DNA of 64,000 nt from NCBI RefSeq assembly GCF_000687915.1, contig NZ_JHZY01000004.1:1374001-1438000 (forward strand). The letters are read 5' to 3'. Positions 19,580 to 36,281 of the stretch are shown piece after piece. The translations under genes and the position numbers were made by a program. The stretch's first letter is position 1; every line of letters begins with the position of its first letter. The notes under the pieces were generated by a model. That model searched no databases and was not told where the DNA came from. It saw nothing but the letters and a program-made list of their open reading frames with translations. This DNA is from Leeuwenhoekiella sp. MAR_2009_132 (lineage in GTDB: Bacteria; Bacteroidota; Bacteroidia; Flavobacteriales; Flavobacteriaceae).

Positions 19580-20797
19580 ATGAATACGCGATTTAACCTT
19601 ATTTTAGACACGAGACGCAAGCGAAAAGATAACACTTTTCCAATTATTTTCAGATTGATTCATCTCGGAAAATCTACTTCTATTGCTACAGGATATGCCG
19701 TCGAAAAACGCTATTGGGATCCTGTAAAACAAGAAATCAAAAAATCCTATCCGGACACCTTTTCTGTTGCTCGTTTAAACACGGTACTCCTTAAAGAAAA
19801 AGCCAGAGGAAATGATATTATTAATAAGCTTGCCGATCAACGAAAACTGCGATTTCTCTCCCTTAAAGAATTAAGGGATAAAATCACCACCAAAGCTGTT
19901 TACGATTCATTTTTTGATTTTGGCGATCAGGTTGTGGCCGAGTTGAAAGCGGCAGATCGTATTGGTAGTGCTAAGTGTTATAACGTTACTCTAGGGGTTC
20001 TTAGAACGTTCAATAAGGGCGCAGACCTCAAGTTTAATGAAGTTAACCTAGATTTATTAGAACGTTTCCATAAATATCATATGGCAAAAGGCAATAGCCT
20101 CAACGGGCTTTCCAACTATATGCGAAACATTCGCGCCTTATTCAACAGAGGGATCAAGGCAGGGATTATTGAACAGGAAGCTTATCCCTTTATTCATTAT
20201 CAGATTAGAACGGAACCTACAGCCAAACGGGCTTTAGACCTCCATTCCATTCGTAAAATCGTGAATCTTAAATTAGAGGAAGATGATCCGCTGTTTCATC
20301 ACCGCAACTACTTCTTGATATCCTATATGCTCTATGGGATGCCATTTATTGATTTAGCTTTTTTAAAACTTAAGGACATTCAGGATGGCAGGGTTAAGTA
20401 TAAAAGGAAGAAAACCGCCAAACAGTATAACATCAAGCTTACTGATCAGGTTATTGAACTTCTTGCTCCTTATACAAAAGATAAGGAGCTCGATGACTTT
20501 ATCTTCCCGTTCATTCATCGAGAAAGTCTGGATCATCAATATAAAGACCTGCATCGGGCACGCCGCCTCTATAATTTAGGCTTGCGTAAAATTGGAGAAA
20601 AATGCCAGATTCAACAGACACTCACGGCATACGTAGCCCGGCATAGCTTTGCTACCCAGGCTATGCTGCAAGAAGTGCCGTTACAGGCCATATCAGAGAT
20701 GCTGGGGCATACCAACTTGAATACCACTCAGGTTTATTTAAAATCGCTACCTAGTAACATTTTAGATAACTATAATGAACGGATTGTGATGATTTAG
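19580..20797 (+). CDS. Tyrosine recombinase/integrase of the element
   Basis: A 405-residue site-specific recombinase in the Bacteroidetes family: an N-terminal Arm-DNA-binding domain (FNLILDTRRKRKDNTFPIIFRL), a SAM-like core-binding domain (about 110-200) and a C-terminal catalytic domain. Visible catalytic elements are ARHSFATQAM with Arg and His near 355, and GHTNLNTTQVYLK with the nucleophile Tyr near 390. The position of the first catalytic arginine reads YGMPFIDLAFLK, with Pro where Arg is usual, as in IntDOT-like enzymes that also lack it. Its place next to attL shows it mobilises this element. Confidence 0.93.
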   Translation: MNTRFNLILDTRRKRKDNTFPIIFRLIHLGKSTSIATGYAVEKRYWDPVKQEIKKSYPDTFSVARLNTVLLKEKARGNDIINKLADQRKLRFLSLKELRDKITTKAVYDSFFDFGDQVVAELKAADRIGSAKCYNVTLGVLRTFNKGADLKFNEVNLDLLERFHKYHMAKGNSLNGLSNYMRNIRALFNRGIKAGIIEQEAYPFIHYQIRTEPTAKRALDLHSIRKIVNLKLEEDDPLFHHRNYFLISYMLYGMPFIDLAFLKLKDIQDGRVKYKRKKTAKQYNIKLTDQVIELLAPYTKDKELDDFIFPFIHRESLDHQYKDLHRARRLYNLGLRKIGEKCQIQQTLTAYVARHSFATQAMLQEVPLQAISEMLGHTNLNTTQVYLKSLPSNILDNYNERIVMI

Positions 20798-20820: not shown

Positions 20821-22734
20821 CTATAGTAACCGAATACAAAAATTCATCAAATTAACTATATTATGTCCTACAGTTGGTAAAATCAAATTTCCCGAGAATT
20901 TTCTCAGAATACCCAAACTCAACGAGGTAATTAGGGTTATGTAGACAATCGTAATATAATCTACTTTAAATTCCATAGCTTCCGTTAGCACGACACCATG
21001 AATCATTGCGAACAGAAAGGTTACGATTATAAATCCCCAGCCAAAAAATATACCTTTCACTTGTTTCGTAGGAATAAAGGCTTTACTCAACAACCATAAA
21101 AGAATACCCCGGTAAACGATTTCATTTATATCCTCTTTTTCCAATAACACCCTGATTTCTTCCAGTGCCTTTTCAGATATAGAATGTTGTACACCGAACA
21201 CTTCCTGTAACACCAAATCGACACCTGCTCCATATGTGTTGAACTCCATGTCTTTTGCTGATCGGGCATTTACAATGTTGTTTTCTCTTTTGAATACAAA
21301 AACATTGTTGGGAAAGCAATCGGAAATAATAAAAGGAGAATGGGAAGTAAGTACCACATCTTTTAAAAGATTATTACCTCCTCCTGCCTTGATGCTGTCG
21401 GACAATACGCGGATGAATTTGCTGCGCCAATCGGGATTGAAATGCGTTTCTGGTTCATCCAGCAACATGAGCGTGCGCCTGTCTTTTAGAAGTAGACAAA
21501 TACCCATGGTGTGCAGAAACTGGTGTTCACCATCAGAAAAATCGCGCAATAGCAATTCCTTATATTTAGTAGGATTTTCCTTGATGCGTTTATCAATGAG
21601 GAAATCCAAAAAGTAAAACACTTTTTGATCGGGTCCGGGAAGTTGTAGTTTGCCGTGTGTGTACTTCCCTTTGGACTCGTACACTTCTTCCTTCGTTTCT
21701 TGCTCTACAAAGTGATTGTTAAGCTCATATAAATGTTGAAAAAAACGAAAGCAGGCAAGCGCGCTGTTGTTAAATATTTTCCGAAAGGCCTTTTTCATAG
21801 TGACATCCACATAAAAGTCGAGTAAGAGGTAGCTTTCACCTCTTACATATCCTTCCTCTTCTGTTCGATCCTCTTCATAAAAGGAGGTGGATATAACTTT
21901 TAGTTTATCAAGTATCGGTTTGATGTAGGCAAATACTGGGTAAGTAAGTTGTGTGTTTTTGTCTCCTTCAAATGCCTTTTTTAGCCGATGGTTATTGAGA
22001 TGCATACGAAAACTGCGGAGTTGTCTAATCCCCAATTCTTTATGTAGCGGTTCCAGTGTCCTGTCTTCTTCAAAAAGCATACAAGACATCAATACTGCTT
22101 GGCTCATTTCCGCATCGATGTATGTTAAACTGTGTGCAGATTCTTTCCAAGTACCGCCTTGTGAAGCCAGTTGTGCATGTTCATCCAATCGGATTAGGCG
22201 CGACTTGAGAAAGGGAATACTCAAAATTTCGTTTTCACCCGATGAATAGCCTACTACCAATTCTGGTAGAAAACCTTTGCCTTCAGCCGATTTCTCGTTG
22301 CTTTTGGCAACAATTTCCATTTCCTTTTCACCGCTTTCCTCATTTGGTCTAACGAAACGTTGCCACATTTTAGGTGATTTACCTATTTCTTTAACAATGC
22401 GGATGTGATTGTATCCGGTTTCGAGGCCACTGGCATCTTTCGGGGCAATGAGGTATTCCACCTCAAACGAATCAGGGCCGTTCGGGTGGTGTGCCGGAGT
22501 GAAAAAGTGTTTAAACCCTTCGGGCTTGTAGCGGTTGGCACACAATTCAAGGTGATAGAAGATGTTTGCCAATGCTTCCAATACATTGCTTTTGCCACTG
22601 CCGTTTAGCCCAGCAAAGCAAAAAGGCTGGAATTGCAGCAACTCTTCATTTTCGGCTTGGGCACGAAATGCGAGCTTGAACCCTGCATCAAGGCTGCGAA
22701 AATCCGTTCCTATAGTGAGGTGAAGCAGCTTCAT
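20821..22734 (-). CDS. Restriction-system-associated AAA ATPase fused to a CPBP-like membrane segment
   Basis: A 637-residue protein. Residues 1 to about 520 form an SMC/OLD-like AAA ATPase: Walker A AGLNGSGKSN (41-50), signature-like DFSDGEHQF and Walker B TLMLLDEPETHFNPD, then VVLTSHSPFIISD. This matches the AAA family encoded beside type I restriction genes. The last ~100 residues are different: NEIVYRGILLWLLSK (538-552), FAMIHG and LPTVGHNIVN in three membrane helices are motifs of CPBP/Abi intramembrane proteases, although the EE of motif 1 reads NE and the domain's N-terminal helices are missing. The start overlaps the hsdS stop by 4 bases. Confidence 0.85.
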   Translation of the reverse strand: MKLLHLTIGTDFRSLDAGFKLAFRAQAENEELLQFQPFCFAGLNGSGKSNVLEALANIFYHLELCANRYKPEGFKHFFTPAHHPNGPDSFEVEYLIAPKDASGLETGYNHIRIVKEIGKSPKMWQRFVRPNEESGEKEMEIVAKSNEKSAEGKGFLPELVVGYSSGENEILSIPFLKSRLIRLDEHAQLASQGGTWKESAHSLTYIDAEMSQAVLMSCMLFEEDRTLEPLHKELGIRQLRSFRMHLNNHRLKKAFEGDKNTQLTYPVFAYIKPILDKLKVISTSFYEEDRTEEEGYVRGESYLLLDFYVDVTMKKAFRKIFNNSALACFRFFQHLYELNNHFVEQETKEEVYESKGKYTHGKLQLPGPDQKVFYFLDFLIDKRIKENPTKYKELLLRDFSDGEHQFLHTMGICLLLKDRRTLMLLDEPETHFNPDWRSKFIRVLSDSIKAGGGNNLLKDVVLTSHSPFIISDCFPNNVFVFKRENNIVNARSAKDMEFNTYGAGVDLVLQEVFGVQHSISEKALEEIRVLLEKEDINEIVYRGILLWLLSKAFIPTKQVKGIFFGWGFIIVTFLFAMIHGVVLTEAMEFKVDYITIVYITLITSLSLGILRKFSGNLILPTVGHNIVNLMNFCIRLL

Positions 22735-24239
22735 ATGGTGGTGAGTCTGGTTTTAATGGAACCATCTTCGTTATCTGACGTTTCTTGGGTTACTAATCCT
22801 TTCTTTAGCATGTGATAAAGGGCATCCTTGGCTCGGTTGTAGGCGGCTACGGATTCAAAGTCGAATGATTTGGTGTCTTCATCTATTGTTGCTTCCTCCT
22901 CTTCTTCCGATAATGCATCTGTTTTGGCTTGGTTGAAACGATCAACGAGGGTTCGTATCAGCACTGCATCAGCTGCAATGGCTTCGAAGTTTTCTTTTTC
23001 TAAATAGCCGTCTAACTGCAAGTCAGGATCTATAGTTAGGTTACCATGAAAGGCACGTTGGAGCAAGGATTGGAAAAGTAAATTCATCTCTTCCAAGGAC
23101 TTCTCTTGAATCTGAATTTGAGCCTCTATTTTATTTGCAAAAATTGCAAATCGATCTTGCTTTTTTCTGTCAGGAAGCCACACCTGAATAGCTTTTATTT
23201 TATTTGGAGAAGTATGACGAACCTTCGCTCCGGTTGATTGAAAATGAATAATTTCTTTCATTAATTCTGATCTAAAAAGATAGAACAAAAACTGTTTGTT
23301 AAGCTTTTTGGATGTAATTTCAACTAATCCTAATCTTTGGTTATGGAGGAAGTTGATTCCCGGTACGAATAGTGGGGTTCCTAACAAACCTTTAGTTTGT
23401 TCCGTCATAACAACAAGAAGATCATCTTTTTTAAGAAGGAATCTTTCAGGAAATTCACCTTCATAAAACTTCTGTTTTTCTCCCAAATCTCTGAACCCTC
23501 CATTTTCATTAAAATTCCCAGGAGTTAACAATTTGTTTTCCCCTGAGGCCTTGAAGAACCTACTTTTGAATGCATACCCATGATGTATGTCAATATAGTC
23601 ACCTAACGGAAATGATTCGGAATCGCCATCGACCGAAGCAATTCCACTAAAATTCAATGTGAAAGTGGCATCCAATAATTCTTTGAAAGTTAGTAGAGCT
23701 CTATGGCGCTTATCAATTAGAATCTTAGCCTTATCCAGAGCGGTCACGATCTCACGCTGGGTAGTGATATTTTCAGGAGCGCTTAACATTAAGTCATCGA
23801 TATCCCGATTCTTGATGTTGAGGATATTAGCTCCTATTGCCAAATTGGCAATTTCTCTGCGGTATCGCTGGCTTTGAAAGTAGTGAGCGATGTAACCACT
23901 TAAAACGTGACTGGAAAACGGTCGGACCACTTTGCAGAAAGCCCCGAAAGAACATCTTTGCTTTCCGGTAAATCGGGCTCCTCTTCCAACAACATTGATG
24001 CTTCCACTTGAGGCAACTATTAAAATATCGCCATCTTGCAAGAATTGCTCCTCCTTAATTAATTCTTCTGGTAAGTAGATCAAGTCTTCATAAGTAATAT
24101 GAAAGCTCTCATTGACATTATTAGCTCGTAAAACAGGCACATAACCAGATTCAGGTTCGCTAAGAGCGAGCTCTTTCTTGTACGACAGTCCTCGAACCTG
24201 CTTAGTAAGGTCTCCAATGCGAAATTCATCCAAATTCAT
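22731..24239 (-). CDS. hsdS: Type I restriction-modification specificity subunit HsdS
   Basis: 502 residues with two target-recognition domains: the first about 5-180 (VPVLRANNVNESFHITYEDLIYLPEE, ILIVASSGSINVVGR), the second about 200-390 (FPLGDYIDIHHGYAFKSRFF, HNQRLGLVEI), each followed by a conserved helix (QREIVTALDKAKILIDKR and KQDRFAIFANKIEAQIQIQEKSLEEMNLLFQSLLQRAFHG). It directs methylation to a bipartite DNA target. It carries a C-terminal acidic extension of about 100 residues (EEEEEATIDED). It overlaps hsdM and the AAA gene by 4 bases each, so the three are translationally coupled. Confidence 0.94.
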   Translation of the reverse strand: MNLDEFRIGDLTKQVRGLSYKKELALSEPESGYVPVLRANNVNESFHITYEDLIYLPEELIKEEQFLQDGDILIVASSGSINVVGRGARFTGKQRCSFGAFCKVVRPFSSHVLSGYIAHYFQSQRYRREIANLAIGANILNIKNRDIDDLMLSAPENITTQREIVTALDKAKILIDKRHRALLTFKELLDATFTLNFSGIASVDGDSESFPLGDYIDIHHGYAFKSRFFKASGENKLLTPGNFNENGGFRDLGEKQKFYEGEFPERFLLKKDDLLVVMTEQTKGLLGTPLFVPGINFLHNQRLGLVEITSKKLNKQFLFYLFRSELMKEIIHFQSTGAKVRHTSPNKIKAIQVWLPDRKKQDRFAIFANKIEAQIQIQEKSLEEMNLLFQSLLQRAFHGNLTIDPDLQLDGYLEKENFEAIAADAVLIRTLVDRFNQAKTDALSEEEEEATIDEDTKSFDFESVAAYNRAKDALYHMLKKGLVTQETSDNEDGSIKTRLTTI

Positions 24240-25837
24240 CCAATCAAATCATTTAGTTCCCGCATTTCATTCAGTATATCATCTTCCAATTCTATCAATC
24301 GGGAAAGGATTTCTTTAGGAGGATCGTAGGTCTGTTCGTCATATACAAATTCCTTGTAGCGATTAAGACTCAGGTCGTATGCTTTTTCTTGTAGTTCACT
24401 TAGTGGCACATAGAAGTGGAGGCTCTTTCGGTCTTCAGGGGTAATTTTTTGATCCTTAATTTGCTCATACGTTTTTACTATTTCGGGCAATGGATTTTCT
24501 GAGAGCTTTTTGCGGTTGTCGTCTAAACTATAGCCATCACTTTTTAGCTCATAAAACCATACTTTTTCCGTGTGAAAGGTTTTCGCATCCTGTTCTACTT
24601 TGGTAAACATAAGAATAGCCGTTTTTACTCCTGTATAAGGCTTGAAAGCTCCTGCAGGTAGAGAAATAACTGCATCTAAGCGGCAATCCTTCATCAGAAT
24701 TTGCCGTACATCTTTGTGTGCTTTGCCCGAATTGAACAATACGCCCTCGGGTACAATCACAGCCGCACGGCCACCTTCTTGTAGCATATATACCATCCGT
24801 TCTAAAAAGAGCAGTTCGGATTGAACGGATTGCTTAACCCGTTTGTTTTCGTCCTTTTTATCGTACTTCGGTGGATACACGCGGTCTAAATTCTCACTTA
24901 CCCCAGGGCTGTCAATTCTACCGGTAAAGGGAGGATTGGCCATAATGTATTTGTACTGACCTTGTATAGCTACATTGGCCAACGTGCTTTTATCTATAGG
25001 ATCAAACTCCTCCTGAAGTTGTAGAGCTTCCCATGCTTCGTATTGAGAAGAAAGGGAATCGAGGTGGACGATATGTGGCTTGGTAATACCATGCATCATT
25101 AGGTTCATCACCCCAATGCGCACCATGGTACGGTCTATGTCAAAACCATAAAAGATGTCTTCCTTTAATTTTTGTTTCTGTTCCGCAGTAAATTGATTAC
25201 CATCCGTTCCTTTTTGAAGGCCATCATCATCCGATTCTTTGTGATCGGAATACTTGGTGAGAATGTATTGATAGGCTGCCACCAGGAAACCTCCGGAACC
25301 CGAAGCCAAGTCACAAATTTTTCCATCAAGATCGGGATCGAGTAAAGCCGCCATCATGTGGATGATGTGACGAGGCGTACGGAATTGTCCATTTTTACCA
25401 GCTTCTGAAGTATGCAGCAAAAGGTGTTCGTAAACATCTCCCTGAATATCATGAAAGTGCTGATTTCTTTCTATCTCTTTATCTATCTCTTGGTAAATGG
25501 CATCGATAAAACCAATGGCACTTTTTAACAAAGCCGGATTTTCTATTTCAAAATTGGCATTCGCCATCGCTTGCGCAAAAGGCTCATCTTGCTGGCCGAG
25601 GTCTGTTTTGATGTAATTGAAAACTGCGCCCATACGCTTCACAAGTTCCTTGCCTTCTATTTTGTGGTAGTTACTCCACTTATATTCCTTTGGTACGGTT
25701 TCGTGAAAGTCCTCTAATCGCTTCATGAAAAGTAAATAGGAAATTTGCTCAATGGCGGTAATAGGGTTAGAAAGTCCACCCGACCATAAACGATCCCAAA
25801 GATTTTGTACCTGACTTTTTATTTCATGATTAAGCAT
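24236..25837 (-). CDS. hsdM: Type I restriction-modification N6-adenine methyltransferase HsdM
   Basis: 533 residues. The N-terminal HsdM_N helical domain (MLNHEIKSQVQNLWDRLWSG to about 150) is followed by the N6_Mtase domain: motif I KICDLASGSGGFLVAAYQY, motif IV YIMANPPFTG (NPPF, for adenine N6 methylation) and VIVPEGVLFNSGKAHKDVR. It is the first gene of hsdM-hsdS-AAA on the minus strand. No hsdR lies anywhere in the window, although this operon type normally has one. Confidence 0.95.
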   Translation of the reverse strand: MLNHEIKSQVQNLWDRLWSGGLSNPITAIEQISYLLFMKRLEDFHETVPKEYKWSNYHKIEGKELVKRMGAVFNYIKTDLGQQDEPFAQAMANANFEIENPALLKSAIGFIDAIYQEIDKEIERNQHFHDIQGDVYEHLLLHTSEAGKNGQFRTPRHIIHMMAALLDPDLDGKICDLASGSGGFLVAAYQYILTKYSDHKESDDDGLQKGTDGNQFTAEQKQKLKEDIFYGFDIDRTMVRIGVMNLMMHGITKPHIVHLDSLSSQYEAWEALQLQEEFDPIDKSTLANVAIQGQYKYIMANPPFTGRIDSPGVSENLDRVYPPKYDKKDENKRVKQSVQSELLFLERMVYMLQEGGRAAVIVPEGVLFNSGKAHKDVRQILMKDCRLDAVISLPAGAFKPYTGVKTAILMFTKVEQDAKTFHTEKVWFYELKSDGYSLDDNRKKLSENPLPEIVKTYEQIKDQKITPEDRKSLHFYVPLSELQEKAYDLSLNRYKEFVYDEQTYDPPKEILSRLIELEDDILNEMRELNDLIG

Positions 25838-26352: not shown

Positions 26353-26721
26353 TTATTTCTTCTTAAGCAACTCTTCTAAATAAGTCACTTTATCTTTTTC
26401 AGCTTGAACTAGTCGTTCATATAATTCAACTATTTTTTCAATTGGATTGAAATTATTTTGAATTGAATTATCATGAAAGTTATTAATATTGTTAAAAACA
26501 GCTTCGTCTGAGAAGTTCTTTAGTCCTTCCTTAGTCACTCCAAGTACTTTAGCAATTTCCTCCAATTTCGTTTCCTCTAAAGTTTCACTTTTTTCAATGT
26601 GTGAAACACTTTGTTGACTGATCCCTAGTTCTTGGGCAAGAGTTTCTTGTTTCATCCCGCGCAGCTCACGTATGCGGGCGATCTTTTTTCCTATATGATT
26701 GGGTTTGGTTGCTGTTGTCAT
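26353..26721 (-). CDS. XRE-family transcriptional regulator
   Basis: 122 residues. The N-terminal HTH_3 domain (IGKKIARIRELRGMKQETLAQELGISQQSVSHIEKSETLEETKLEEIAKVLGV, about 10-64) is a Cro/CI-type DNA-binding fold. A helical C-terminal part (VELYERLVQAEKDKVTYLEELL) probably dimerises as a coiled coil. It is divergent from the sigma-dCas12f operon, and the 170-bp spacer carries several inverted repeats, so it likely represses itself and that operon. Confidence 0.85.
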   Translation of the reverse strand: MTTATKPNHIGKKIARIRELRGMKQETLAQELGISQQSVSHIEKSETLEETKLEEIAKVLGVTKEGLKNFSDEAVFNNINNFHDNSIQNNFNPIEKIVELYERLVQAEKDKVTYLEELLKKK

Positions 26722-26755
26722 AACTTAAAGATATTGGTTCTTTCTCCTTGATTTA

Positions 26756-26866
26756 CTTGTTTGGTAAAATACAAGTTCATCTTGGTATTTTACAAAAGCC
26801 TTTGGTGGGCTACATTTCTTGACACTACTAATTTAAAGCAAAATTTCTGCTTGGTAAAGCCCAAGC
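26756..26866. promoter_or_regulatory. Divergent promoter region with three related operator-like sites
   Basis: Site 1 contains GTAAAATAC (26764-26772) and site 2 its exact inverse GTATTTTAC (26785-26793), together a 9-bp inverted repeat with a 12-base gap. Site 3 is GCTTGG/CCAAGC (26849-26854 with 26861-26866). Sites 1 and 3 share TTGGTAAA followed four bases later by CAAG. These fit XRE operators controlling both divergent transcripts; binding is inferred. Confidence 0.55.
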
Positions 26867-26891
26867 TTGTTTCACCTTAAAAAAAGTAGCT

Positions 26892-27728
26892 ATGCGTCCT
26901 ACTCCGATATCCTCCAAAGATAGCATTCCTGCAAGGAAGTCTTCCCGGGATGCATATTATTTTGATTTACTTCAATCGGAGTGCCCACAGGCTTTCGCTC
27001 AGATTTACAGGCAATACCAAAGGCGCATCTACTGGATGGGTAGGAGTATACTTAAAGATGTCTTTGTCGTAGAAAATATCCTTCAGGATACGTTTCTAAT
27101 ACTGTGGGAGAAAAGAGACCGGATAAAATCACCGGAGCATATGTGTGCGTTCTTACACTTTGTTATGAAAAGCGAGTGCATTTATTACTATGGCAAGCCA
27201 AGGAAGAAGTTTCAACGAAACCTAAGCAGATTAGAATTTTTTGAGAACTATCAGGAATATATGCACGGATATGATCCGGAGGAAGAAGATACGCATCTAC
27301 TGGGGCAGGAAGCAGACCAGAAAGCTTTCGATCGGATTCAAAGGGTGCTCCCCTTGCTTAGAAGTGAAAGAAAGCTTCTCATTGAACTCTGTTTAAAATA
27401 CGACTTTCAGTATAAAGCTATTGCTCAAGCGATGGGAGTCAGCATCACCAAAACCAGTATCGAAGTAAAAAGCGCCATTGCCGATATTAAAAAGATCATT
27501 ACTAAAGGGAGTACACTAGAAATTAAACCAAAACAGATGCTGGCGGTGCAGATCGGGGATATCTTGACTCAGGAACAGGAAAAGGTGTTACAGCTGCGTA
27601 CAGAAAAGCAGTATTCCTTTGCAGCCATTGCCAGAGAGCTTAACCTTTCCCAAAAGGAAGTGCATAAGGAATTTGTGGCTGCCTATAAACTGATACAGCT
27701 CAAAGACGAACAACAACAATCCGCTTAA
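26892..27728 (+). CDS. ECF-like sigma factor with duplicated region-4 HTH, paired with dCas12f
   Basis: 278 residues. Region 2 (about 33-105: FAQIYRQYQRRIYWMG, ENILQDTFLILWEKRDRI, FLHFVMKSECIYYYGK) is a clear ECF core-RNAP-binding and -10-recognition module. A first region-4-like HTH follows (about 152-203: SERKLLIELCLKYDFQYKAI), then a second one (about 224-270: EQEKVLQLRTEKQYSFAAIA), where ECF factors normally have one. There is no anti-sigma gene. The stop is 2 bases before the dCas12f start. Sigma factors paired with nuclease-dead Cas12f are known from Flavobacteriia, where the RNA-guided protein replaces -35 recognition; I infer the same here. Confidence 0.88.
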   Translation: MRPTPISSKDSIPARKSSRDAYYFDLLQSECPQAFAQIYRQYQRRIYWMGRSILKDVFVVENILQDTFLILWEKRDRIKSPEHMCAFLHFVMKSECIYYYGKPRKKFQRNLSRLEFFENYQEYMHGYDPEEEDTHLLGQEADQKAFDRIQRVLPLLRSERKLLIELCLKYDFQYKAIAQAMGVSITKTSIEVKSAIADIKKIITKGSTLEIKPKQMLAVQIGDILTQEQEKVLQLRTEKQYSFAAIARELNLSQKEVHKEFVAAYKLIQLKDEQQQSA

Positions 27729-27730
27729 TT

Positions 27731-28831
27731 ATGGAAAAAGACAGGATAAAACTCACGCGAAAAATCCAGCTGCAAGTGGACGCCCCTACTCATGAAGAAA
27801 AAAGGGAGGCTTTGGAAACCCTATACCGCTGGCAAAATAGATGTTACAGGGCGGCTAATCTTATTGTAACCCATCTGTACATACAGGAAATAATCAAAGA
27901 ATTCTTTTATTTATCAGAAGGAATAAAATATAGGCTGGCGGATGAAAAAAAAGCGGAAGACGGCATACTAAACCGTTCCAAAACCAATTGTACCTACCGG
28001 GTGGTATCCGATCAATTTAAAGGGGAAATTCCAACCAATATTCTAGCTAACCTGAACAATATCGTTATGAATAGCTTTAGTAACAACTTGCCGGCATACC
28101 GAAAAGGAGAAAGCTCCTTGTCAAATTTCAGAAGGGATATCGCCTTTCCTTTTGGATCTAGAGGCATTCAAGGCTTATCGTATAACGAAGAAAGAAAAAC
28201 ATTTTGTTTTCGACTATTTTCTGTTCCAATGAAAGCATATCTGGGAAATGACTATACGGATAAACGTCGGTTACTGGAACAGGTAGTGTCAGGTGAAATC
28301 AAGCTTTGCGCCTCTAAAATTCAACTCAAAAATCAAAAGATTTATTGGCTAGCCGTATTTGATATGGATAAAGAAAAGCACAGCCTGAAACCGCAAGTAA
28401 TTGCAGAGGCTTCTTTATCTCTTGAATATCCTATAATAGTAAAATCTGGAAAAGCAACGTTGAGTATTGGCAGTCGGGAAGAATTTCTATACAGAAGATT
28501 AGCCATACAGGCTGCACTCAAAAGGGCACAAAACGGTGCCGCCTATTGCAGATCGGGAAAAGGCCGTAAACGTAAAACAAAAGCAATAGACCGGTTTCAC
28601 GAAAAAGAAAAAAACTATGTCGGAAACCGCTTGCATCTATACAGCCGAAAGCTAATTGATTTTTGTATTGAACAACAAGCTGGGACCCTTATTTTGTTAA
28701 ACCAGGAAGATAAAATGGAAATTGCCAAAAAAGAAAATGGGTTTGTTCTAAGAAATTGGAATTACCACGAATTGATGAACAAAATAAAATACAAGGCTGA
28801 TAAAGCCGGTATTGAACTTATAGTAGATTAA
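27731..28831 (+). CDS. Nuclease-dead Cas12f/TnpB homologue (RNA-guided DNA-binding protein)
   Basis: 366 residues. The C-terminal third reads like Cas12f: GKGRKRKTKAIDRFHEKEKN (bridge-helix region, 277-296), then LYSRKLIDFCIEQQAGTLIL, RNWNYHELMNKIKYKADKAG. The N-terminal WED/REC-like part (LTRKIQLQVDAPTHEEKREA) also fits. The RuvC catalytic positions are gone: motif I is ASLSLEYPIIV (227-237) without Asp, motif II is TLILLNQ (319-325) where active enzymes have ED, and the protein ends at IELIVD, before the zinc finger and RuvC-III Asp. It should bind but not cut DNA. It is co-transcribed with the sigma factor; guide-like RNA units follow directly. Confidence 0.85.
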   Translation: MEKDRIKLTRKIQLQVDAPTHEEKREALETLYRWQNRCYRAANLIVTHLYIQEIIKEFFYLSEGIKYRLADEKKAEDGILNRSKTNCTYRVVSDQFKGEIPTNILANLNNIVMNSFSNNLPAYRKGESSLSNFRRDIAFPFGSRGIQGLSYNEERKTFCFRLFSVPMKAYLGNDYTDKRRLLEQVVSGEIKLCASKIQLKNQKIYWLAVFDMDKEKHSLKPQVIAEASLSLEYPIIVKSGKATLSIGSREEFLYRRLAIQAALKRAQNGAAYCRSGKGRKRKTKAIDRFHEKEKNYVGNRLHLYSRKLIDFCIEQQAGTLILLNQEDKMEIAKKENGFVLRNWNYHELMNKIKYKADKAGIELIVD

Positions 28832-28929
28832 ATTCAATTAGGAGGGTGCTTGTACACCCGCAAGGTGAGGTTTTTAAAACACTCACTAAATGCGCACAGC
28901 ATATACAACAAAAGCCTTCCCTTTTTTAT
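28832..28929 (+). ncRNA. Guide-RNA-like unit 1 (scaffold plus putative guide)
   Basis: Begins ATTCAATTAGGAGGGT right after the dCas12f stop. Hairpin 1 is GGGTG/CACCC and hairpin 2 is GTGAG/CTCAC, and the scaffold closes with GCATATACAAC at 28909. The following bases, aaaagccttcccttttttat (28910-28929), are unlike the second unit and are the putative guide. Scaffold-then-guide order matches Cas12 crRNA and TnpB omega RNA. Transcript ends are not known. Confidence 0.65.
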
Positions 28930-28964
28930 CCTATTAAGCTCATAGGCCAAAAGGAAATGGAGTC

Positions 28965-29220
28965 ACAAACTGCTGACCAAAATAAAATACAAGACCGTTG
29001 TAACCAGAATTGAACTTATAGAAGATTCAATTAGGAGGGTACTTGTATATGCGCAAAGTGAGATCGCAGACACTCACCAAATATCAGGCATATATAACGG
29101 CGTAAGATTTTTTATAATTAAACTGTTCATTTACCAATTGACAGCGTAAACTGCTGATGAAAAAGAAAAAATACAGCAACTTTTTAGAAGGAATTAATTC
29201 TATTACGGCAGGATATTGAA
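28965..29220 (+). repeat. Tandem duplication of the dCas12f 3' end plus guide-RNA unit
   Basis: 28970-29023 repeats the last ~55 bases of the dCas12f gene (AAAATAAAATACAAG... TTGAACTTATAG) with substitutions, then continues into the second scaffold; the offset is 198 bases. A third, much decayed start is visible at about 29150-29200 (AAACTGCTGATG, then CTTTTTAGAAGGAATTAATTC). The unit duplicated is gene end plus guide RNA, as expected if the RNA overlaps the gene's 3' end. Confidence 0.75.
29025..29118 (+). ncRNA. Guide-RNA-like unit 2 (scaffold plus putative guide)
   Basis: Same scaffold as unit 1: ATTCAATTAGGAGGGT, weaker hairpin 1 (GGGTA/TATGC), hairpin 2 GTGAG/CTCAC conserved with a different loop, and GCATATATAAC at the end (29098). 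The next bases, ggcgtaagattttttataat (29099-29118), share nothing with unit 1 and are the second putative guide. Confidence 0.65.
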
Positions 29221-29238
29221 TCAAAAATATTAGCCAGC

Positions 29239-29592
29239 TCAATCTTTAAAAGAGGCATTATTTTTCTCCAAAATTTTCCGCTCCACAAGTAAGGGTTTCT
29301 CATTTTTTTGGGGCTGAAATAAGCGCTCTAATAATTCTCGTGAAGGCTTCAATTGTTCTGTTTCCATTCTTCTTAAGATAGCCTCAACAGCATCCATGCG
29401 CTTATCAATGAGTAGGTGTAAACTATGTACAGAATCATCAAAGGGCACAAAAGGATTAATCGAATACTTTTCAAAAAAATCTAAAATAGCCTCTAAGGTT
29501 TCTGTATAATTTGCATCATTTGTTATGGCGTACTTTTTAAAGCGCTCAACAGTTTCGGTGTGGAAATTAATTCTGGAAAATTTAGAACTCAT
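29239..29592 (-). CDS. BfmA/BtgA-type mobilization protein
   Basis: 117 residues from ATG 29592 (MSSKFSRINFHTETVERFKKYA), preferred over the upstream ATG at 29628 because the conserved part begins there. The segment FKKYAITNDANYTETLEAILDFFEKY is typical of small accessory mobilization proteins of Bacteroidetes mobilizable elements, which work with a relaxase at oriT. The partner relaxase gene is absent, so this is probably a relic, or acts with a relaxase supplied in trans. Palindromes lie directly upstream. Confidence 0.7.
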   Translation of the reverse strand: MSSKFSRINFHTETVERFKKYAITNDANYTETLEAILDFFEKYSINPFVPFDDSVHSLHLLIDKRMDAVEAILRRMETEQLKPSRELLERLFQPQKNEKPLLVERKILEKNNASFKD

Positions 29593-29733
29593 AGCTTTAA
29601 AATTTAAAATTAGGACAATCAATCGCACTGTTAATAAGGCTTGCGGAGCGTTTTTAAATTATTTGGCGCAAAAGTGAATTTCACTCCAAATTAAAAATAA
29701 ATTTAAATAACTGAAATACAGCACTTTAAACTT

Positions 29734-30365: not shown

Positions 30366-32501
30366 CTAAATATCCTGCAAAACAAGTCTTGACTTTTCAA
30401 GAAAACTATATGCCCCGTCGAAGTCAAAGTAGCGATCTTTAATTATTTCTATTTGATAAAAAACAGGAAGATAAACTCCCCATTTAGAGAAATTTAAAAA
30501 TGTTTTATTTTCTAATAATGCCTCTTTTATAGCCAAATCTAAATCTATTTTACTTTTAATATTTGAAGTAAAAATACCTTTCAAATCATCAAGATTGCTA
30601 TTAATATCCAAACTGCTATTATTTTCATCCAAAAGAGATTCATATCCCAAAATAGCAAATATGAATTTTATGCTTTTATTGATTTTACTTCCTGAAAAAG
30701 TATAAACCAAAATGGAATTTTCTTTTAAAACAATTGGAACATCTCTTGAGAAATCATTTATAGTAAAGTGCTTAAATTCAAACCTAAGCTCTTCCAAAAT
30801 AGATTTGCAATTTTCATTTAGTTCGGGATAAGAAAAGTTTGATTTTAAAATACGAAACATTTCTTTTCTTATCTCAGGATGGATATTGCCACCTGTTCCT
30901 GAGTATGTAGGGGGTTTTCCATCATTTGCAGGAATAACCTCTATTTTATTCGAGTTGAAATCAACATCCTTAATTTTCCAAATTCTAGCTGCAAGTAAAA
31001 TGTTTTCTCCTACTTCTATTTGCGGAGAAAAAGGCATTTCTCCAATTTTACGACCTTGAGAAGAAACTTTAAAATTCTCTTCTGTTTTAAATACACTGTA
31101 AAAGTCTTTTGAATTAACAATATATTCTCCCTCCAAACCTAAGATGATCTCATCTCTGATTTTTTCCAAATATTCTAGTTTAAGACATTCTTCAATTATT
31201 TCTTCGACCTCATTTTGTCTGATTAACTTAAATACAGGATTCAAAATTATAAAATTAATTAGCTCCGCCTGTTTTATACCACTATTCTGCTTAGCAATAG
31301 ATAATAATTGATGAAGTAATATATCATAAGCCTTTTCAGAAATTCTTAATGGCTCCAAAAAATCTTTCTCATATAAACCCCAACAAGCTAGAGATTGTAA
31401 AAAACTCCATTTGGTAGTGGTATATATAATAACATTACTAGACTCACCTTCTTTTCTACCACTTCTACCTATCCGTTGAACTAATGAAGAAACTGAAAAG
31501 GTAGAATCTATTTGAACAACTTTATCAACTGTTCCTATATCAATTCCTAATTCTAATGTTGAAGTACAAGAAATACAAAAATTAAAACGTTCATTGGTTT
31601 TAGCAAAATTCTCTACTGATTCTCGAATTTCCTTATCTACAGATGAGTGATGTGAAAAATAATTTTTATGCCCTCCAACTTTATCTGAAATTCGTCTTAG
31701 TTTAACTGCAATTTCCTCAGTTTTAGCTCTACTATTTGGAAATACTAACGTTTTAGAATGGTTTGTTTCAAGATATAAGTCCTTTAAGAGGTCCAATCCA
31801 TATTCCTTTCCTTTATTCTCGAAATATTTAAAATATGCTTTTGTTATTTTTTTCGTCTTATCAACTAAAACTTTTGTGCGCTCAACGTCTCCTGTGATTT
31901 TTTTTATCTCTAGAAAATTCTCATTTCCTATTGTTGCTGAAAGACCAATGATAGCAAATTGTGCATTTGTTCTTTCTTTTAATCTAAATAGTAAAGACAT
32001 CAATTGTAATCCTCGATCAACTCCAAGAAAAGAGTGTATTTCGTCAATCACAATAAATTTTAAGTTTTTAAATAATGTCACAACGTTATATGGAGCATTA
32101 ACAAACATTGCCTCAATCGACTCGGGAGTAATTAAAACTATTCCCTGAGGATCTTTTATTAGTTTCTTTTTTAAAGATCGATTAGCTTCCCCGTGCCATT
32201 TAGTAACATCAATCTCAAGGTTTTTACATAGATCTTCTATACGCTTAAATTGATCATTTATTAAAGCTATCAGCGGAGATATATAAAGAACCTGTACTCC
32301 GACTTCGTTAAAATTAACTTTAGAAATTATAGGTAAGAAAGCAGCCTCAGTTTTACCTGAAGCTGTATGTGATGCAAGAATATAATGATTATTAGTTTCT
32401 AATATTTTGGGGATGGCTGCTGCTTGTATAGGTCGTAATTTATCCCACCGCTTTTCCCGTATATATTTTCTAATAGGCTCTGAAAGTAGTTTATATGCCA
32501 C
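30366..32501 (-). CDS. DEAD/DEAH-box helicase, Lhr/BrxH-like
   Basis: 711 residues of superfamily 2 helicase. The Q-motif-like RPIQAAAIPKIL (23-34) precedes Walker A SHTASGKTEAA (44-54), DEIH (153-156) and SAT (188-190). The second RecA domain carries CTSTLELGIDIGTVDKV and VQRIGRSGR. After about 400 residues the C-terminus is an Lhr/BrxHI-type winged-helix and accessory region, shorter than in Lhr. It probably unwinds or translocates on nucleic acid for the adjacent TerB/BrxD-like proteins. It is not an HsdR: no endonuclease motif is seen. It is last in the operon; the start overlaps the ATPase stop by 1 base. Confidence 0.88.
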   Translation of the reverse strand: MAYKLLSEPIRKYIREKRWDKLRPIQAAAIPKILETNNHYILASHTASGKTEAAFLPIISKVNFNEVGVQVLYISPLIALINDQFKRIEDLCKNLEIDVTKWHGEANRSLKKKLIKDPQGIVLITPESIEAMFVNAPYNVVTLFKNLKFIVIDEIHSFLGVDRGLQLMSLLFRLKERTNAQFAIIGLSATIGNENFLEIKKITGDVERTKVLVDKTKKITKAYFKYFENKGKEYGLDLLKDLYLETNHSKTLVFPNSRAKTEEIAVKLRRISDKVGGHKNYFSHHSSVDKEIRESVENFAKTNERFNFCISCTSTLELGIDIGTVDKVVQIDSTFSVSSLVQRIGRSGRKEGESSNVIIYTTTKWSFLQSLACWGLYEKDFLEPLRISEKAYDILLHQLLSIAKQNSGIKQAELINFIILNPVFKLIRQNEVEEIIEECLKLEYLEKIRDEIILGLEGEYIVNSKDFYSVFKTEENFKVSSQGRKIGEMPFSPQIEVGENILLAARIWKIKDVDFNSNKIEVIPANDGKPPTYSGTGGNIHPEIRKEMFRILKSNFSYPELNENCKSILEELRFEFKHFTINDFSRDVPIVLKENSILVYTFSGSKINKSIKFIFAILGYESLLDENNSSLDINSNLDDLKGIFTSNIKSKIDLDLAIKEALLENKTFLNFSKWGVYLPVFYQIEIIKDRYFDFDGAYSFLEKSRLVLQDI

Positions 32502-33814
32502 TATAATTCTTCTATAGAATCTAAATTAGTTTCTTGAGGTCTTTCATCCTTTATTTCAATACTTGAAAAAATAGATGCTTTATCTGCTTTAGGATTTTGA
32601 CGCAATAGACTCATAATATTAAGAAAGTCTCGAATAACTTCTCTTGGTGTTAAAAATTCATCTGCTCCAGGCTTATTAAACATATCCTCCATATACAATT
32701 GGATATCTTCATCTGTGATATCTATCTCTATATCATAGTTAAAGTTGTATATCTCTTTTAGCTTTTTTAGCAAGACAAATATTTCATTATGATTAAGTGG
32801 TTTTAGCTTAATTACAGGTTGGGTGTAATCTCTAAATTCTACTGTCTCAAATTTATTGGTTTGAAGTCTAGTTTTTAAAGCGTCATAACTGAACAACCCC
32901 CTACGCTCATTTTCTAAGAATTCTTTAGTCCCTGCAAAATTTATAAAGAGATTAGATATCTTTCCTTGAAAACAGTCATTAAAAATAGTTAGTATTTTTT
33001 CATAATTTTTGGCTCTTGTGGGTGCAGTTGATATTTTATATAAATTGATAGCCTCATCCAAATTAATCATAAAACCACTATATCCAATACTTACAAATAG
33101 TCTGCAAAAATTTTTGAGCATATCATAGTAGTTCAGGTCATTAATTATTTCCCTAACACCTAAATCTTGTCTAGCTTCTGTCTTTGTTGAGTACTCTCCC
33201 TTTAACCATTTTAAAGCACTCCTTTTTAAATAGTCGTCTCCCGTAATATACCCCTCAAAATATTTGATAACAACCACTCCAAAATCAAATCCACCAGTAT
33301 CAGATACTTCATTAACTGCTTTCATCAAATTATTTTGAATCAAGCTGATATATTTCTCTTCTCTTATTTCAGTAACAGCTATTTTATTTTGCTGAGCTGT
33401 AATAGATATTTCTTGTTCAATCCATTTATCAAGCAAAGTTGGCAAAGCTCCCCCTTCAGGTTTTGTTTGAATAGCTATATTATCCATTATTGCACTATAA
33501 AGCGCTAATGCTTTACCATCATTAGAATATAATCGATTATCTGGTGTGAAATCTGCATTTGATACTACGAACTTCTCTCTAGTCGCTACTGTATTTAGTA
33601 GATGAAGCATAAATGACTTTCCAGAACCAAAATCTCCAATCCAAAATTTGCACATACTATGCCCATTTTTGACATCTTCTAAGGCACTAGTGTAAGCTTC
33701 AATTTCAGGTTCTCTTCCGACGGTTATATGTTGAACTCCAATTCTTGGAACAACACCTCCTGATAATGAATTGACAATAGCTTTCGCTTCTTTAGATCTA
33801 ATTTTAGCTGCCAT
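32501..33814 (-). CDS. BrxD-like P-loop ATPase (BrxC/BrxD family)
   Basis: 437 residues. The opening EAKAIVNSLSGGVVPRIGVQHITVGREPEI and Walker A WIGDFGSGKSFML (58-70) are typical of the DUF2791/BrxD family, found in BREX types with an Lhr-like helicase and in TerB-linked operons. The Walker-B-like segment is YSGFMINLDEAINLYK. A STAND/Orc-like middle and a helical C-terminus (EFLTPREVIRDFLNIMSLLRQNP) follow. It probably acts as the AAA motor that loads or regulates the helicase. It is 4 bases behind the TerB-type gene. Confidence 0.87.
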   Translation of the reverse strand: MAAKIRSKEAKAIVNSLSGGVVPRIGVQHITVGREPEIEAYTSALEDVKNGHSMCKFWIGDFGSGKSFMLHLLNTVATREKFVVSNADFTPDNRLYSNDGKALALYSAIMDNIAIQTKPEGGALPTLLDKWIEQEISITAQQNKIAVTEIREEKYISLIQNNLMKAVNEVSDTGGFDFGVVVIKYFEGYITGDDYLKRSALKWLKGEYSTKTEARQDLGVREIINDLNYYDMLKNFCRLFVSIGYSGFMINLDEAINLYKISTAPTRAKNYEKILTIFNDCFQGKISNLFINFAGTKEFLENERRGLFSYDALKTRLQTNKFETVEFRDYTQPVIKLKPLNHNEIFVLLKKLKEIYNFNYDIEIDITDEDIQLYMEDMFNKPGADEFLTPREVIRDFLNIMSLLRQNPKADKASIFSSIEIKDERPQETNLDSIEEL

Positions 33815-33818
33815 AAAC

Positions 33819-36281
33819 TTAATTTTGTATTATTTCTTCGTAAAAAGATTTTTCTATAATATAATTTTCTTCATCTTCTTCAATTAACACCTCTCCCTCC
33901 AATACCTCAAAACATATCTCATTAATACTGTCAATCAACTGATTTTTTAGAAATCCTCCTTGAATTGCAATTAGCTGCACTGCCTGTTGCGGAATCATAT
34001 ATTCATTATCAACAATTGAATTCAAAATATTTTTTTGTAAATCATTAAAAATCAGACCTTTTCTATATTTTGAGATTGATTCTTCTTTTCGTTTATTTCC
34101 TAGGTCAATTACAATATCCGTCTTTTCAACTTGAGTTATATCATCATCCGATTCTGAAGAGCCTAAATATTTATTTAAGATCTCTATTGTATTTGAATGT
34201 TTATCTTCGACTTCTTGAATTTTCTTCTTATCTAAAATAATTTTTCTTCGTTTTGGCTCGTAAAATCCCGACAAATTTTGAAGAGCTTTTTCAATATTTT
34301 CGGTTGTCATAAGTTCATCAATTATTTTCTGGAACTCTATAACTTGATCTTGACTTTTGAATAGTGACTTTTGAATTGTTTTAGTTAATTGTTTATTATG
34401 AATCTTATCAGATTTCAAATCATAAAAAATGTATTTAGCATAAAATTTTAAAGCTTGCGTTTTATCTACACCTGCTATTATTTTAGAAGCCTCATAAAAA
34501 ACATTTTCAATATTTTGATTTTTAACATTTAACTTTTCCAACCTTTCAATCTCTTGATTAAAAGATTCAACATTTCCTTTATCGAGTTTAATTTTTTTGA
34601 ATTCTTCTTTCCATCTATTTACATTTTGAGAATTTAGTTCTATTTCAGTTTCATCATCAGGAGAGCCTATTTCATTTTTAAAACGCTCTAGTAATTTATC
34701 AATCAGAGGTCCTGTAAAATCTTCAAACTTTTCTATTATAGCATTTTCATGATTAAAATATACCTCAGCACTGATCTTTCGATTATGTCTAAATCTTTCT
34801 CTTAAAACATTCTCAGTACGCTTGAAAACGGATAAATAAAAATCCCTTTCAATATTTTCTGAGGCAAATCGATAATCATACTTATTAGAATATTCTGGAT
34901 TTTTATTTAGAATTATTCGTAGCTCTTCAATGAATAATTCTATAGAAGTGTTTTGCTTTTCTAGCTCAAAATCCAATTCAGTTATTACTTTTAAATAAAG
35001 ATTTATTATAGCGGTGATACATCCTGGGATGGAATTAAAAACATTGGATTGATAATAAAATTTATTAAGAAGAATTACTTCTGAATCTTTTAAATTCAAA
35101 CTTTCACCATAAATCCCACCAAGACGATATGCATTTGGGTCATATTCTGTAAACCCATTCTGGAATTGAAATAGAGGGTCTTCTAATTTAGATAAAAGTT
35201 CTTTTGAATTATTATCAGTCCTTTTTCTTAAGATATCCATCAATAAATAAAGACTGTAAGATTTAATCTTCGGCGTTTCATTCCCTAACAAAATAAGTTG
35301 ATCGTATAGTTTTTGAAAATTCTGATGCTTTTGAAACGAATTATATAAATCAAAGTAAAGTATGAAAGCGTAGTTGGTATTTCCTTCTATGTCGAGTATT
35401 TGTCCATTTAAAAAGCTCTTCTTATATCTTTCATAAAATGCCTTTTGTGACTTAGAAGCATAGCTTATATCGTCATAACTATAAACATACATATGTGACC
35501 AAGATGGCACTGTATTTAAGTATTCTTCCTTTACTATCTCTAGATTTAATTCAAAACTGTTAACATCAAAAATAGAATCATCATTTGGAGCATTATTTAC
35601 ATCTTGAGAGTTTGTAACGTATCTATTGGAAGAGTCTTTAATTTTTGGCCTATGCCTATTATTAACAACCTCATTCCATTGTTCTTTAGTCACGTGACTA
35701 TTCCTTAAATCTTTCTTTTTACTAAAGGGTATTCCTTTATTATATCTTTCGTTAAATTTTAAATCTTGCATAGTGATTAGTATTATAAAATCTATAAAAC
35801 CAATAACGAAAGGAATAAATGTCCAACAAAACAAAGTATAAAGGACTCCTTTACCTATCTGGCCTAAATAATATCTATGCAATCCTATTCCTCCAAAAAA
35901 TAATGCCAATAAGCTTGCTCCTATTTTATTTTTATTCTTAAATCCAATACGGAAAAAAATATAAGCTAATGTGGAAATAACTATTATGGCAATAAAAAAA
36001 TCAAAAAAATCAGAAGATTGATTCAATGCCTTACTCGAATCCGATATTAAAGTTCTTTGAGATAAATTAGAATCTCTCTCAATCTCTTGCAAATATTTAT
36101 TAAATGAATACCCCTCAACTCCTTTATAGGATAACTTAACCCAATTAGAGCCTTTTGCGCCTAAAACTTCTACAGTATCACCTTTGCTAATAACATCAAC
36201 AATAGAAGACGTTGACGAAGAACTACTTCTGAGATTTAAATCAGCGTTGGTAACATAAAATCCTGAATCCTGAATATTCAT
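33819..36281 (-). CDS. Membrane-anchored SH3b-TM2-TerB_N-TerB_C protein
   Basis: 820 residues in this order: an SH3b domain (5-65: VTNADLNLRSSSSSTS, WVKLSYKGVEGYSFNKYL), one membrane helix (92-112), a TM2 domain (118-172: GGIGLHRYYLGQIGKG plus a hydrophobic pair), and a TerB_N-like region (about 245-460: SYDDISYASKSQKAFYERYK, then NTNYAFILYFDLYNSF). A long charged helical part follows, and the end is a TerB_C-like segment (LIDSINEICFEVLEGEVLI). No central TerB domain is recognisable. TerB_N/TerB_C proteins in operons with a P-loop ATPase and SF2 helicase are predicted stress or defence systems; the SH3b-TM2 head would place this one in the membrane. First gene of the operon. Confidence 0.78.
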   Translation of the reverse strand: MNIQDSGFYVTNADLNLRSSSSSTSSIVDVISKGDTVEVLGAKGSNWVKLSYKGVEGYSFNKYLQEIERDSNLSQRTLISDSSKALNQSSDFFDFFIAIIVISTLAYIFFRIGFKNKNKIGASLLALFFGGIGLHRYYLGQIGKGVLYTLFCWTFIPFVIGFIDFIILITMQDLKFNERYNKGIPFSKKKDLRNSHVTKEQWNEVVNNRHRPKIKDSSNRYVTNSQDVNNAPNDDSIFDVNSFELNLEIVKEEYLNTVPSWSHMYVYSYDDISYASKSQKAFYERYKKSFLNGQILDIEGNTNYAFILYFDLYNSFQKHQNFQKLYDQLILLGNETPKIKSYSLYLLMDILRKRTDNNSKELLSKLEDPLFQFQNGFTEYDPNAYRLGGIYGESLNLKDSEVILLNKFYYQSNVFNSIPGCITAIINLYLKVITELDFELEKQNTSIELFIEELRIILNKNPEYSNKYDYRFASENIERDFYLSVFKRTENVLRERFRHNRKISAEVYFNHENAIIEKFEDFTGPLIDKLLERFKNEIGSPDDETEIELNSQNVNRWKEEFKKIKLDKGNVESFNQEIERLEKLNVKNQNIENVFYEASKIIAGVDKTQALKFYAKYIFYDLKSDKIHNKQLTKTIQKSLFKSQDQVIEFQKIIDELMTTENIEKALQNLSGFYEPKRRKIILDKKKIQEVEDKHSNTIEILNKYLGSSESDDDITQVEKTDIVIDLGNKRKEESISKYRKGLIFNDLQKNILNSIVDNEYMIPQQAVQLIAIQGGFLKNQLIDSINEICFEVLEGEVLIEEDEENYIIEKSFYEEIIQN

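Follow-up and report, generated by a model that had tools for sequence, protein, structure and literature searches.

A probable RNA-guided transcription activator in Leeuwenhoekiella sp. MAR_2009_132: a sigmaE-dCas12f operon that carries a predicted guide RNA, and its candidate target before a SusC operon

A sigma factor gene, a nuclease-dead Cas12f gene (dCas12f) and a predicted guide RNA of Leeuwenhoekiella sp. MAR_2009_132 together probably constitute an RNA-guided transcription activator, with guide 1 directed to a hairpin element, D, in front of SusC operon 1. The locus lies in a stretch of 64,000 nucleotides, here called the window (contig NZ_JHZY01000004.1, positions 1,374,001 to 1,438,000), and its features are collected in Table 1. 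Homology places the gene pair in the dCas12f-sigmaE family of RNA-guided transcription systems. The original prediction had proposed a system of this type; it is strengthened by the full-length match of the pair, the lost catalytic residues, the guide-RNA gene and the matches between guides and leaders, while the kind of system is not new, as solved structures of it exist. Beyond that prediction, two guide-RNA copies were found downstream of the pair, and a second sigmaE-dCas12f operon in the same genome.

Table 1. Features of the sigmaE-dCas12f locus (positions in the window)
Feature	Position	Strand	Evidence
Intergenic promoter region, common to the sigmaE operon and the divergent XRE-type gene	26722..26891	+	Sequence
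ECF-type sigma factor gene (sigmaE)	26892..27728	+	278 aa; Pfam regions 2 and 4; 9n9q_C RpoE
dCas12f gene, predicted nuclease-dead	27731..28831	+	366 aa; 9n9c_A match, Asp/Glu replaced
Guide-RNA scaffold copy 1	28836..28909	+	Three hairpins, ends ATACAAC; R3 95.2 bits (in training set); fold z -3.26
Predicted guide 1 (20-nt length assumed)	28910..28929	+	First 12 nt = D of SusC operon 1, G000:C2:1473870-1473881 (-)
Duplicated dCas12f gene tail, start of second guide-RNA unit	28964..29032	+	80% to 28766-28834
Guide-RNA scaffold copy 2, probably degenerate	29029..29098	+	R3 57.9 bits; fold z -0.04
Predicted guide 2	29099..29118	+	No convincing target found

The two reading frames are as originally described, an ECF-type sigma gene followed after 2 bp by a gene for a 366-residue Cas12f/TnpB-like protein, and both are intact. 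Homology searches with the two products matched the solved dCas12f/RpoE pair over nearly the whole length: residues 2-365 of the 366-aa protein align with 9n9c_A, entitled 'Nuclease-deactivated Cas12f' (E 8.3e-169), and the sigma protein aligns with the RpoE chain of PDB 9n9q (9n9q_C) over residues 24-275 (E 2.3e-75). Sigma-70 regions 2 and 4 were identified by Pfam in two separate stretches of the latter (PF04542, 1.3e-6; PF08281, 5.5e-8). The Cas12f effector 9nzo_B gives a weaker match to dCas12f residues 84-363 (E 8.8e-40). In this alignment the motif GVDLG, whose Asp we take to be that of RuvC-I, stands opposite EASLS, with the Asp on a Ser, and GAIQMER, whose Glu is presumably that of RuvC-II, stands opposite GTLILLN, with the Glu on a Leu. 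The RuvC active site of the window's protein is thus not intact when compared with 9nzo, and the claimed absence of the acidic residues is borne out. The early end of the protein was also correctly noted: dCas12f runs out opposite residue 414 of the 9nzo chain, which has 506 residues, so that the alignment closes there and about 90 C-terminal residues have no counterpart. This short C-terminus is a trait of the family and not a truncation of the window's copy, because the 25 homologues aligned (367 columns) are all about as long. Homologues of dCas12f number 1006 at E<=1e-10, far above chance, and a match at E<=1e-60 is present in 19 of the 397 genomes of the family; a protein 92% identical to that of the window occurs elsewhere (P0001). 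AlphaFold2 modelling of the 366-residue protein from the 25-sequence alignment returned a mean pLDDT of 52.6, and the identity of the fold rests on the sequence match to 9n9c.

Directly past the dCas12f stop codon lies a guide-RNA scaffold composed, in order, of the hairpins GGGTG-CACCC, GTGAG-CTCAC and ATGC-GCAT, followed by ATACAAC. The same scaffold sequence stands behind the dCas12f genes of the relatives read. An alignment of 32 copies, 31 of them distinct, has 98.5% of cells paired in the three helices, whereas shifted controls reach only 26-57%. Four of the 15 pairs are altered on both sides, a value reached by 2 of 500 shuffles; further pair types in these helices are not above shuffles (363 of 500 reach them). 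A scaffold model, R3, detected copies in all 19 dCas12f genomes and in three of 378 others (G021, G364, G376), many of its training copies coming from the dCas12f genomes searched. In the window's genome it detected seven: the window contains two, four follow the second operon, and one stands alone about 7 kb away. Among the matches listed, copy 1, itself in the training set, has the best R3 score. The two units of the window evidently arose by a duplication that took the dCas12f tail along (over 69 nt), and copy 2 is probably degenerate, judged by its predicted fold beside that of copy 1. Folded in isolation, copy 1 is predicted to pair its guide with the scaffold. A guide start at GCGCACAGCATATACA was rejected, since GCGCACAGCATATACA belongs to the scaffold. 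Positions 28600-29250 contain no CRISPR-like array, the only repeats there being the units present in two copies at a distance of 198 nt and one weak family with three members of 21 nt. Tandem guide-RNA units with partly different guides were also observed downstream of dCas12f at L003, L004, L009, L011 and L073, and several relatives carry remnants of the dCas12f tail.

The second sigmaE-dCas12f operon of the genome (C4:103409-104491) encodes a dCas12f 62% identical to that of the window and adjoins another operon, SusC- and SusD-like by eye. Its four guide-RNA copies, and the lone fifth near a SusC-like gene start at 6022, are located at L094:5628-5700 and L094:12861-13394, both on the minus strand.

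The 11-mer AAAGCCTTCCC of guide 1 has four sites in the genome: the guide itself, two in genes on the opposite strand, and one at 84 bp upstream of, and on the same strand as, the gene for a 997-residue SusC/RagA protein (TIGR04056, E 1.6e-201). Three non-self sites compare with about two expected by composition-free arithmetic, so the count is not significant by itself. One extra A extends the SusC site to a 12-nt match starting at -85 of the SusC ATG, on another contig than the window locus, with A, not G, at position -1; one of the two coding sites (L102) likewise extends to 12 nt. As the longest 5'-anchored match of guide 1, these 12 nt have p 0.005 against resampled leaders and p 0.002 against resampled D elements. 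The gene opens SusC operon 1, in which SusC is followed by SusD and an M16 peptidase. SusC operon 2 consists of SusC, SusD and a Dpp5-like peptidase, and therefore both operons may serve peptide uptake. A search of the genome with 18-mer guides and <=3 mismatches gave 32 matches for guide 1 and 19 for guide 2, against 19 and 20 for the reversed control pattern, and no convincing target was found among those inspected (30 of 32 and 19 of 19, respectively).

The site matched by guide 1 forms the 5' arm of the D hairpin, which is palindromic. At E<=0.01, model R2, trained on 13 D copies including both of this genome, identified two D elements in the window's genome; counted from CCTTCCC, they precede the start codons of two SusC genes by 80 and 79 nt. 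With the D of SusC operon 2, guide 1 agrees at 11 of 12 nt. D was found in all 12 genomes searched, every one of them chosen as a dCas12f carrier. Thirty of the 33 matches were read: 23 loci lie before SusC-like genes, six before sigmaE genes, and one (L184) is mis-anchored and was excluded from the SusC count. The distance from D to SusC is 73-86 nt at 22 of the 23 loci and 52 nt (to an upstream ATG) at the other, while D lies 99-250 nt from the sigmaE gene at the six remaining loci.

A second element, leader A, of about 145 nt, is found upstream of many sigmaE genes and was first spotted via guide-like motifs. Its alignment (21 loci, 20 distinct) can be folded into a rod, with 95.2% of cells paired and 16 of 33 pairs altered on both sides. 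In a competing fold, the partner of the rod's 3' arm is a strand farther downstream, which in most rows leads into CCACGCC-TTTTT (99.1% paired; 5 of 16 pairs altered on both sides). Neither the paired percentage nor the covariation score of either fold was reached by any of 500 shuffles. The competing fold resembles an intrinsic terminator, which makes the leader a likely attenuator. Model R1 identified three copies of leader A in the window's genome at E<=0.01, one for the second sigmaE operon and one for each of the two SusC operons; a further R1 match, at 30838-30978 of the window (E 0.0021), runs antisense to a helicase gene and was set aside as chance. By eye, 32 leader A loci were assigned: 12 precede sigmaE genes (L120 being short), 15 SusC-like genes, one a truncated SusC-like start and four other genes. 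Ten SusC-like genes picked from leader A/D loci all have Plug and CarboxypepD_reg domains. Of the 19 genomes that have dCas12f, 18 contain leader A, as do 51 of the 378 genomes without dCas12f (Fisher p 4.5e-14). Several of the genomes searched had supplied training loci for models R1-R3, so that matches in them are partly by construction. Since genomes lacking the system contain it too, leader A probably belongs natively to SusC operons and is read by the dCas12f-sigmaE system. Among the loci read in genomes without a close dCas12f (e.g. L113, L118, L124), it stands mostly before SusC-like genes. A further conserved stretch (TTTAAGCACACCGGTGAATTAGCC and flanks) was noticed between A and D in Leeuwenhoekiella leaders (L107:1850-2030, L010, L103), with no fitting Rfam match in L010 or L103. 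Rfam searches of five loci at E<=1 (L017, L077, L016, L010, L103) gave four sub-threshold matches, none over A or D.

The window's own sigmaE operon has a different upstream region, a promoter region of 170 bp shared with the divergent XRE-type regulator gene (26353-26721, minus strand; HTH_3 7.1e-13). Leaders A and D are absent from it (no R2 match below E 1.4 and no R1 match). The best guide match in this region gave nothing for the window: self-targeting by guide 1 was rejected as too weak, the match being 9 nt at 26793 with C at -1, and two other 9-nt matches occurring in the window. Inverted repeats seen by eye in 26353-26891, GTAAAATAC/GTATTTTAC, may be the operator of the XRE gene.

Guides of the window's genome and of relatives were compared with the leaders of their own genomes by taking the longest 5'-anchored match and 200 first-order Markov resamples, ignoring phylogeny. 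This comparison covered 28 guides from 12 of the 19 dCas12f genomes, with the near-identical guides of G094 taken once and the later R3 guides left aside; the unscored genomes had only a sigma leader, no leader, or an unplaced anchor (L141, L146, L148; L155 wrongly placed). Fifteen of the 28 guides have p<=0.05 and 13 have p>0.05; for guide 2 of the window and 6 of the 28, p exceeds 0.4. Guide 2 of the window, guide u1 of the window's genome and of G144, and both guides of G309 match leaders no better than resamples do. Eleven of the 15 significant matches are on the sense strand, and position -1 is G in eight of these and A in three, including the window's. The published dCas12f-sigmaE system reportedly uses a 5'-G TAM and starts transcription about 46 bp from it. 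Class A guides are identical to the rod's 3' arm, a strand that doubles as the terminator's 5' arm. A separate comparison with D was made for genomes with CCTTCCC-type guides (17 guides, 10 genomes, 24 of the 30 D loci, guide 1 alone from the window's genome), using first-order Markov leader resamples and shuffled guides as controls and again ignoring phylogeny. Ten of the 17 guides reach p<=0.05 and seven fail. The significant matches are of 15 and 12 nt in G100, 14 in G397, 12 in G398, 12 in the window and 11 twice in G400, and of 8 nt in G401, G403 and G329, the last being of the same genus as the window's genome. Model R2 had received no D copy from five of the genomes; three of the five show matches of 14, 12 and 11 nt, and the other two reach 8 nt (p 0.088) and 7 nt (p 0.093). 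At some loci a change in the guide is mirrored in its target: GCGTGACAT, present instead of the usual leader sequence GCGTGGGC, is common to guide u2 of G144 and one SusC leader of that genome, and an unrelated guide in G301 agrees with the SusC leader of its genome in 14 of 16 nt, G standing at -1.

In the proposed mechanism, guide 1 would recruit RNA polymerase with the sigma factor to D, where the match begins 85 bp before the ATG of the SusC-SusD-M16 operon, and transcription would start between D and the SusC start codon. The start would fall about 39 nt before the ATG, a position obtained by applying the reported 5'-G TAM and spacing of about 46 bp to the guide 1 target. The guide ends, R-loop formation, sigma recruitment, direction of regulation and start site are those that we infer. 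Both SusC operons carry leader A, with its rod and U-tract terminator, upstream of the proposed start, and initiation downstream of it would therefore bypass the likely attenuator. Where leader A itself is read by the guide, initiation would occur beyond the terminator's 5' arm, and the mRNA would escape the leader terminator. In relatives whose guides match the leader of their own sigmaE operon, an autoregulatory loop would result; no such match was seen for the window's operon. Speaking against the mechanism are the A at -1 of the guide 1 target, the shortness of a 12-nt match, the predicted copy 1 fold that ties up its guide in the scaffold, and those guides, guide 2 among them, that fit no leader better than resamples do. 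Extended to the Flavobacteriaceae, the model would have dCas12f-sigmaE guides tuned to A and D of SusC and sigmaE-dCas12f operons, initiation past the terminator arm bypassing the attenuator, a positive loop on the system's own operon in many species, and mobile islands taking over peptide or glycan uptake of the host. We offer this wider model tentatively and consider it rather more doubtful than probable.

Several other explanations were weighed. The pair could be an RNA-guided activator whose 12-nt match at SusC operon 1 is incidental, guide 1 being used elsewhere, for instance in another host of the island. We give this a lesser but appreciable chance: the match is only 12 nt long with A at -1, and no longer genome match (<=3 mismatches in 18 nt) exceeds the control level, but the site sits in D, an element found twice in the genome and both times before SusC, and guides of relatives match D of their own SusC genes over up to 15 nt. 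A very unlikely alternative is that the guide RNA acts on the leader RNA, pairing with the opposite arm in the transcript and shifting the balance between rod and terminator. The identity of class A guides with the rod 3' arm and terminator 5' arm, and the palindromic nature of D, would suit this, but it would make the sigma partner superfluous, and G precedes eight of the 11 significant sense matches, as for a dCas12f DNA target with the 5'-G TAM reported for the published system.

The window's copy might instead be a decaying passenger on a mobile island that no longer regulates anything. Copy 2 of the guide RNA does look degenerate and the sigma gene has no leaders A and D in front of it; nevertheless, the intact frames, the 92% identical protein elsewhere (P0001) and the top score of scaffold copy 1 among the listed R3 matches (in the training set) make decay unlikely. 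We also regard as improbable a role of dCas12f and its guide as a repressor, a roadblock at the SusC leader, with the sigma factor working separately. A nuclease-dead RNA-guided protein alone can repress, as is described for TldR (PMC13418256), and the target does lie between the upstream leader A and the start codon, but the sigma gene is only 2 bp upstream and both proteins match one solved complex that contains both (9n9q). RNA-guided activation remains the reading that we prefer.

We infer that the locus is on a mobile island because integrase and mobilization genes are nearby. On one flank are the XRE gene, a set of type I methylase, specificity and AAA ATPase genes (20821-25837), and a tyrosine integrase gene (19580-20797); the other has a BfmA/BtgA mobilization gene (29239-29628; NF041200, 8.1e-16). 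At L010 and L012, a similar mobilization-gene sequence follows dCas12f by eye. The restriction-associated AAA ATPase (20821-22734, minus strand; TIGR04435, residues 1-534) is apparently fused to a CPBP/Rce1-like membrane protease domain (residues 537-631). The region 30366-36281 on the minus strand matches SngC (1.4e-201), SngB (8.6e-163) and SngA (2e-35) of the anti-phage system Shango, the helicase corresponding to SngC, a BrxC/D-type ATPase to SngB and a TM2/SH3/TerB-C protein to SngA. The TerB and restriction genes which the original prediction had singled out as a new context for the pair are indeed present, but the TerB-type gene most likely belongs to this SngABC defence cassette, for which no connection with the pair emerged.

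Regulation of this kind, with RNA-guided transcription through a sigma factor, is very recent; the locus supplies a concrete, testable candidate pair of guide and target. It also illustrates the multiplication of guide-RNA units by a duplication carrying the gene tail along. It further suggests an architecture whose guides recognise leader elements able to fold either as a rod or as a terminator; if the attenuator-bypass model were true, RNA-guided initiation would be joined to RNA leaders at nutrient-uptake operons. We found no description of the A and D elements, of their joint use by SusC and sigmaE-dCas12f operons, or of the guide matches in a literature search that was thin on subscription journals, and the original papers may contain part of this.

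The closest known system is the dCas12f-sigmaE RNA-guided transcription system (PDB 9n9c, 9n9m, 9n9o, 9n9q), reportedly from a paper of Hoffmann, Sternberg and colleagues. The window resembles it in having both proteins homologous over nearly the full length, replaced RuvC residues, a short C-terminus, adjacent genes and a guide RNA beside the gene. It differs in its two guide-RNA units, one apparently degenerate, in its defence and mobilization neighbours, in a predicted target with A at -1, and in targets that are the leader elements A and D. Active Cas12f (9nzo, 8hr5) and TnpB (9nzp) match the sequence of the window's protein over the middle and C-terminal part, and the scaffold end ATACAAC resembles what we take to be the end of a Cas12f repeat; in contrast to them, the window's protein has its catalytic residues replaced and lacks the last residues (about 90), and no CRISPR-like array accompanies it in the segment searched. 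TldR proteins are nuclease-dead TnpB repressors and share with the window a nuclease-dead, RNA-guided protein of TnpB/Cas12f type on a mobile element (PMC13418256). The window's dCas12f, unlike TldR, is accompanied by a sigma factor, and it therefore likely activates transcription where TldR represses it.
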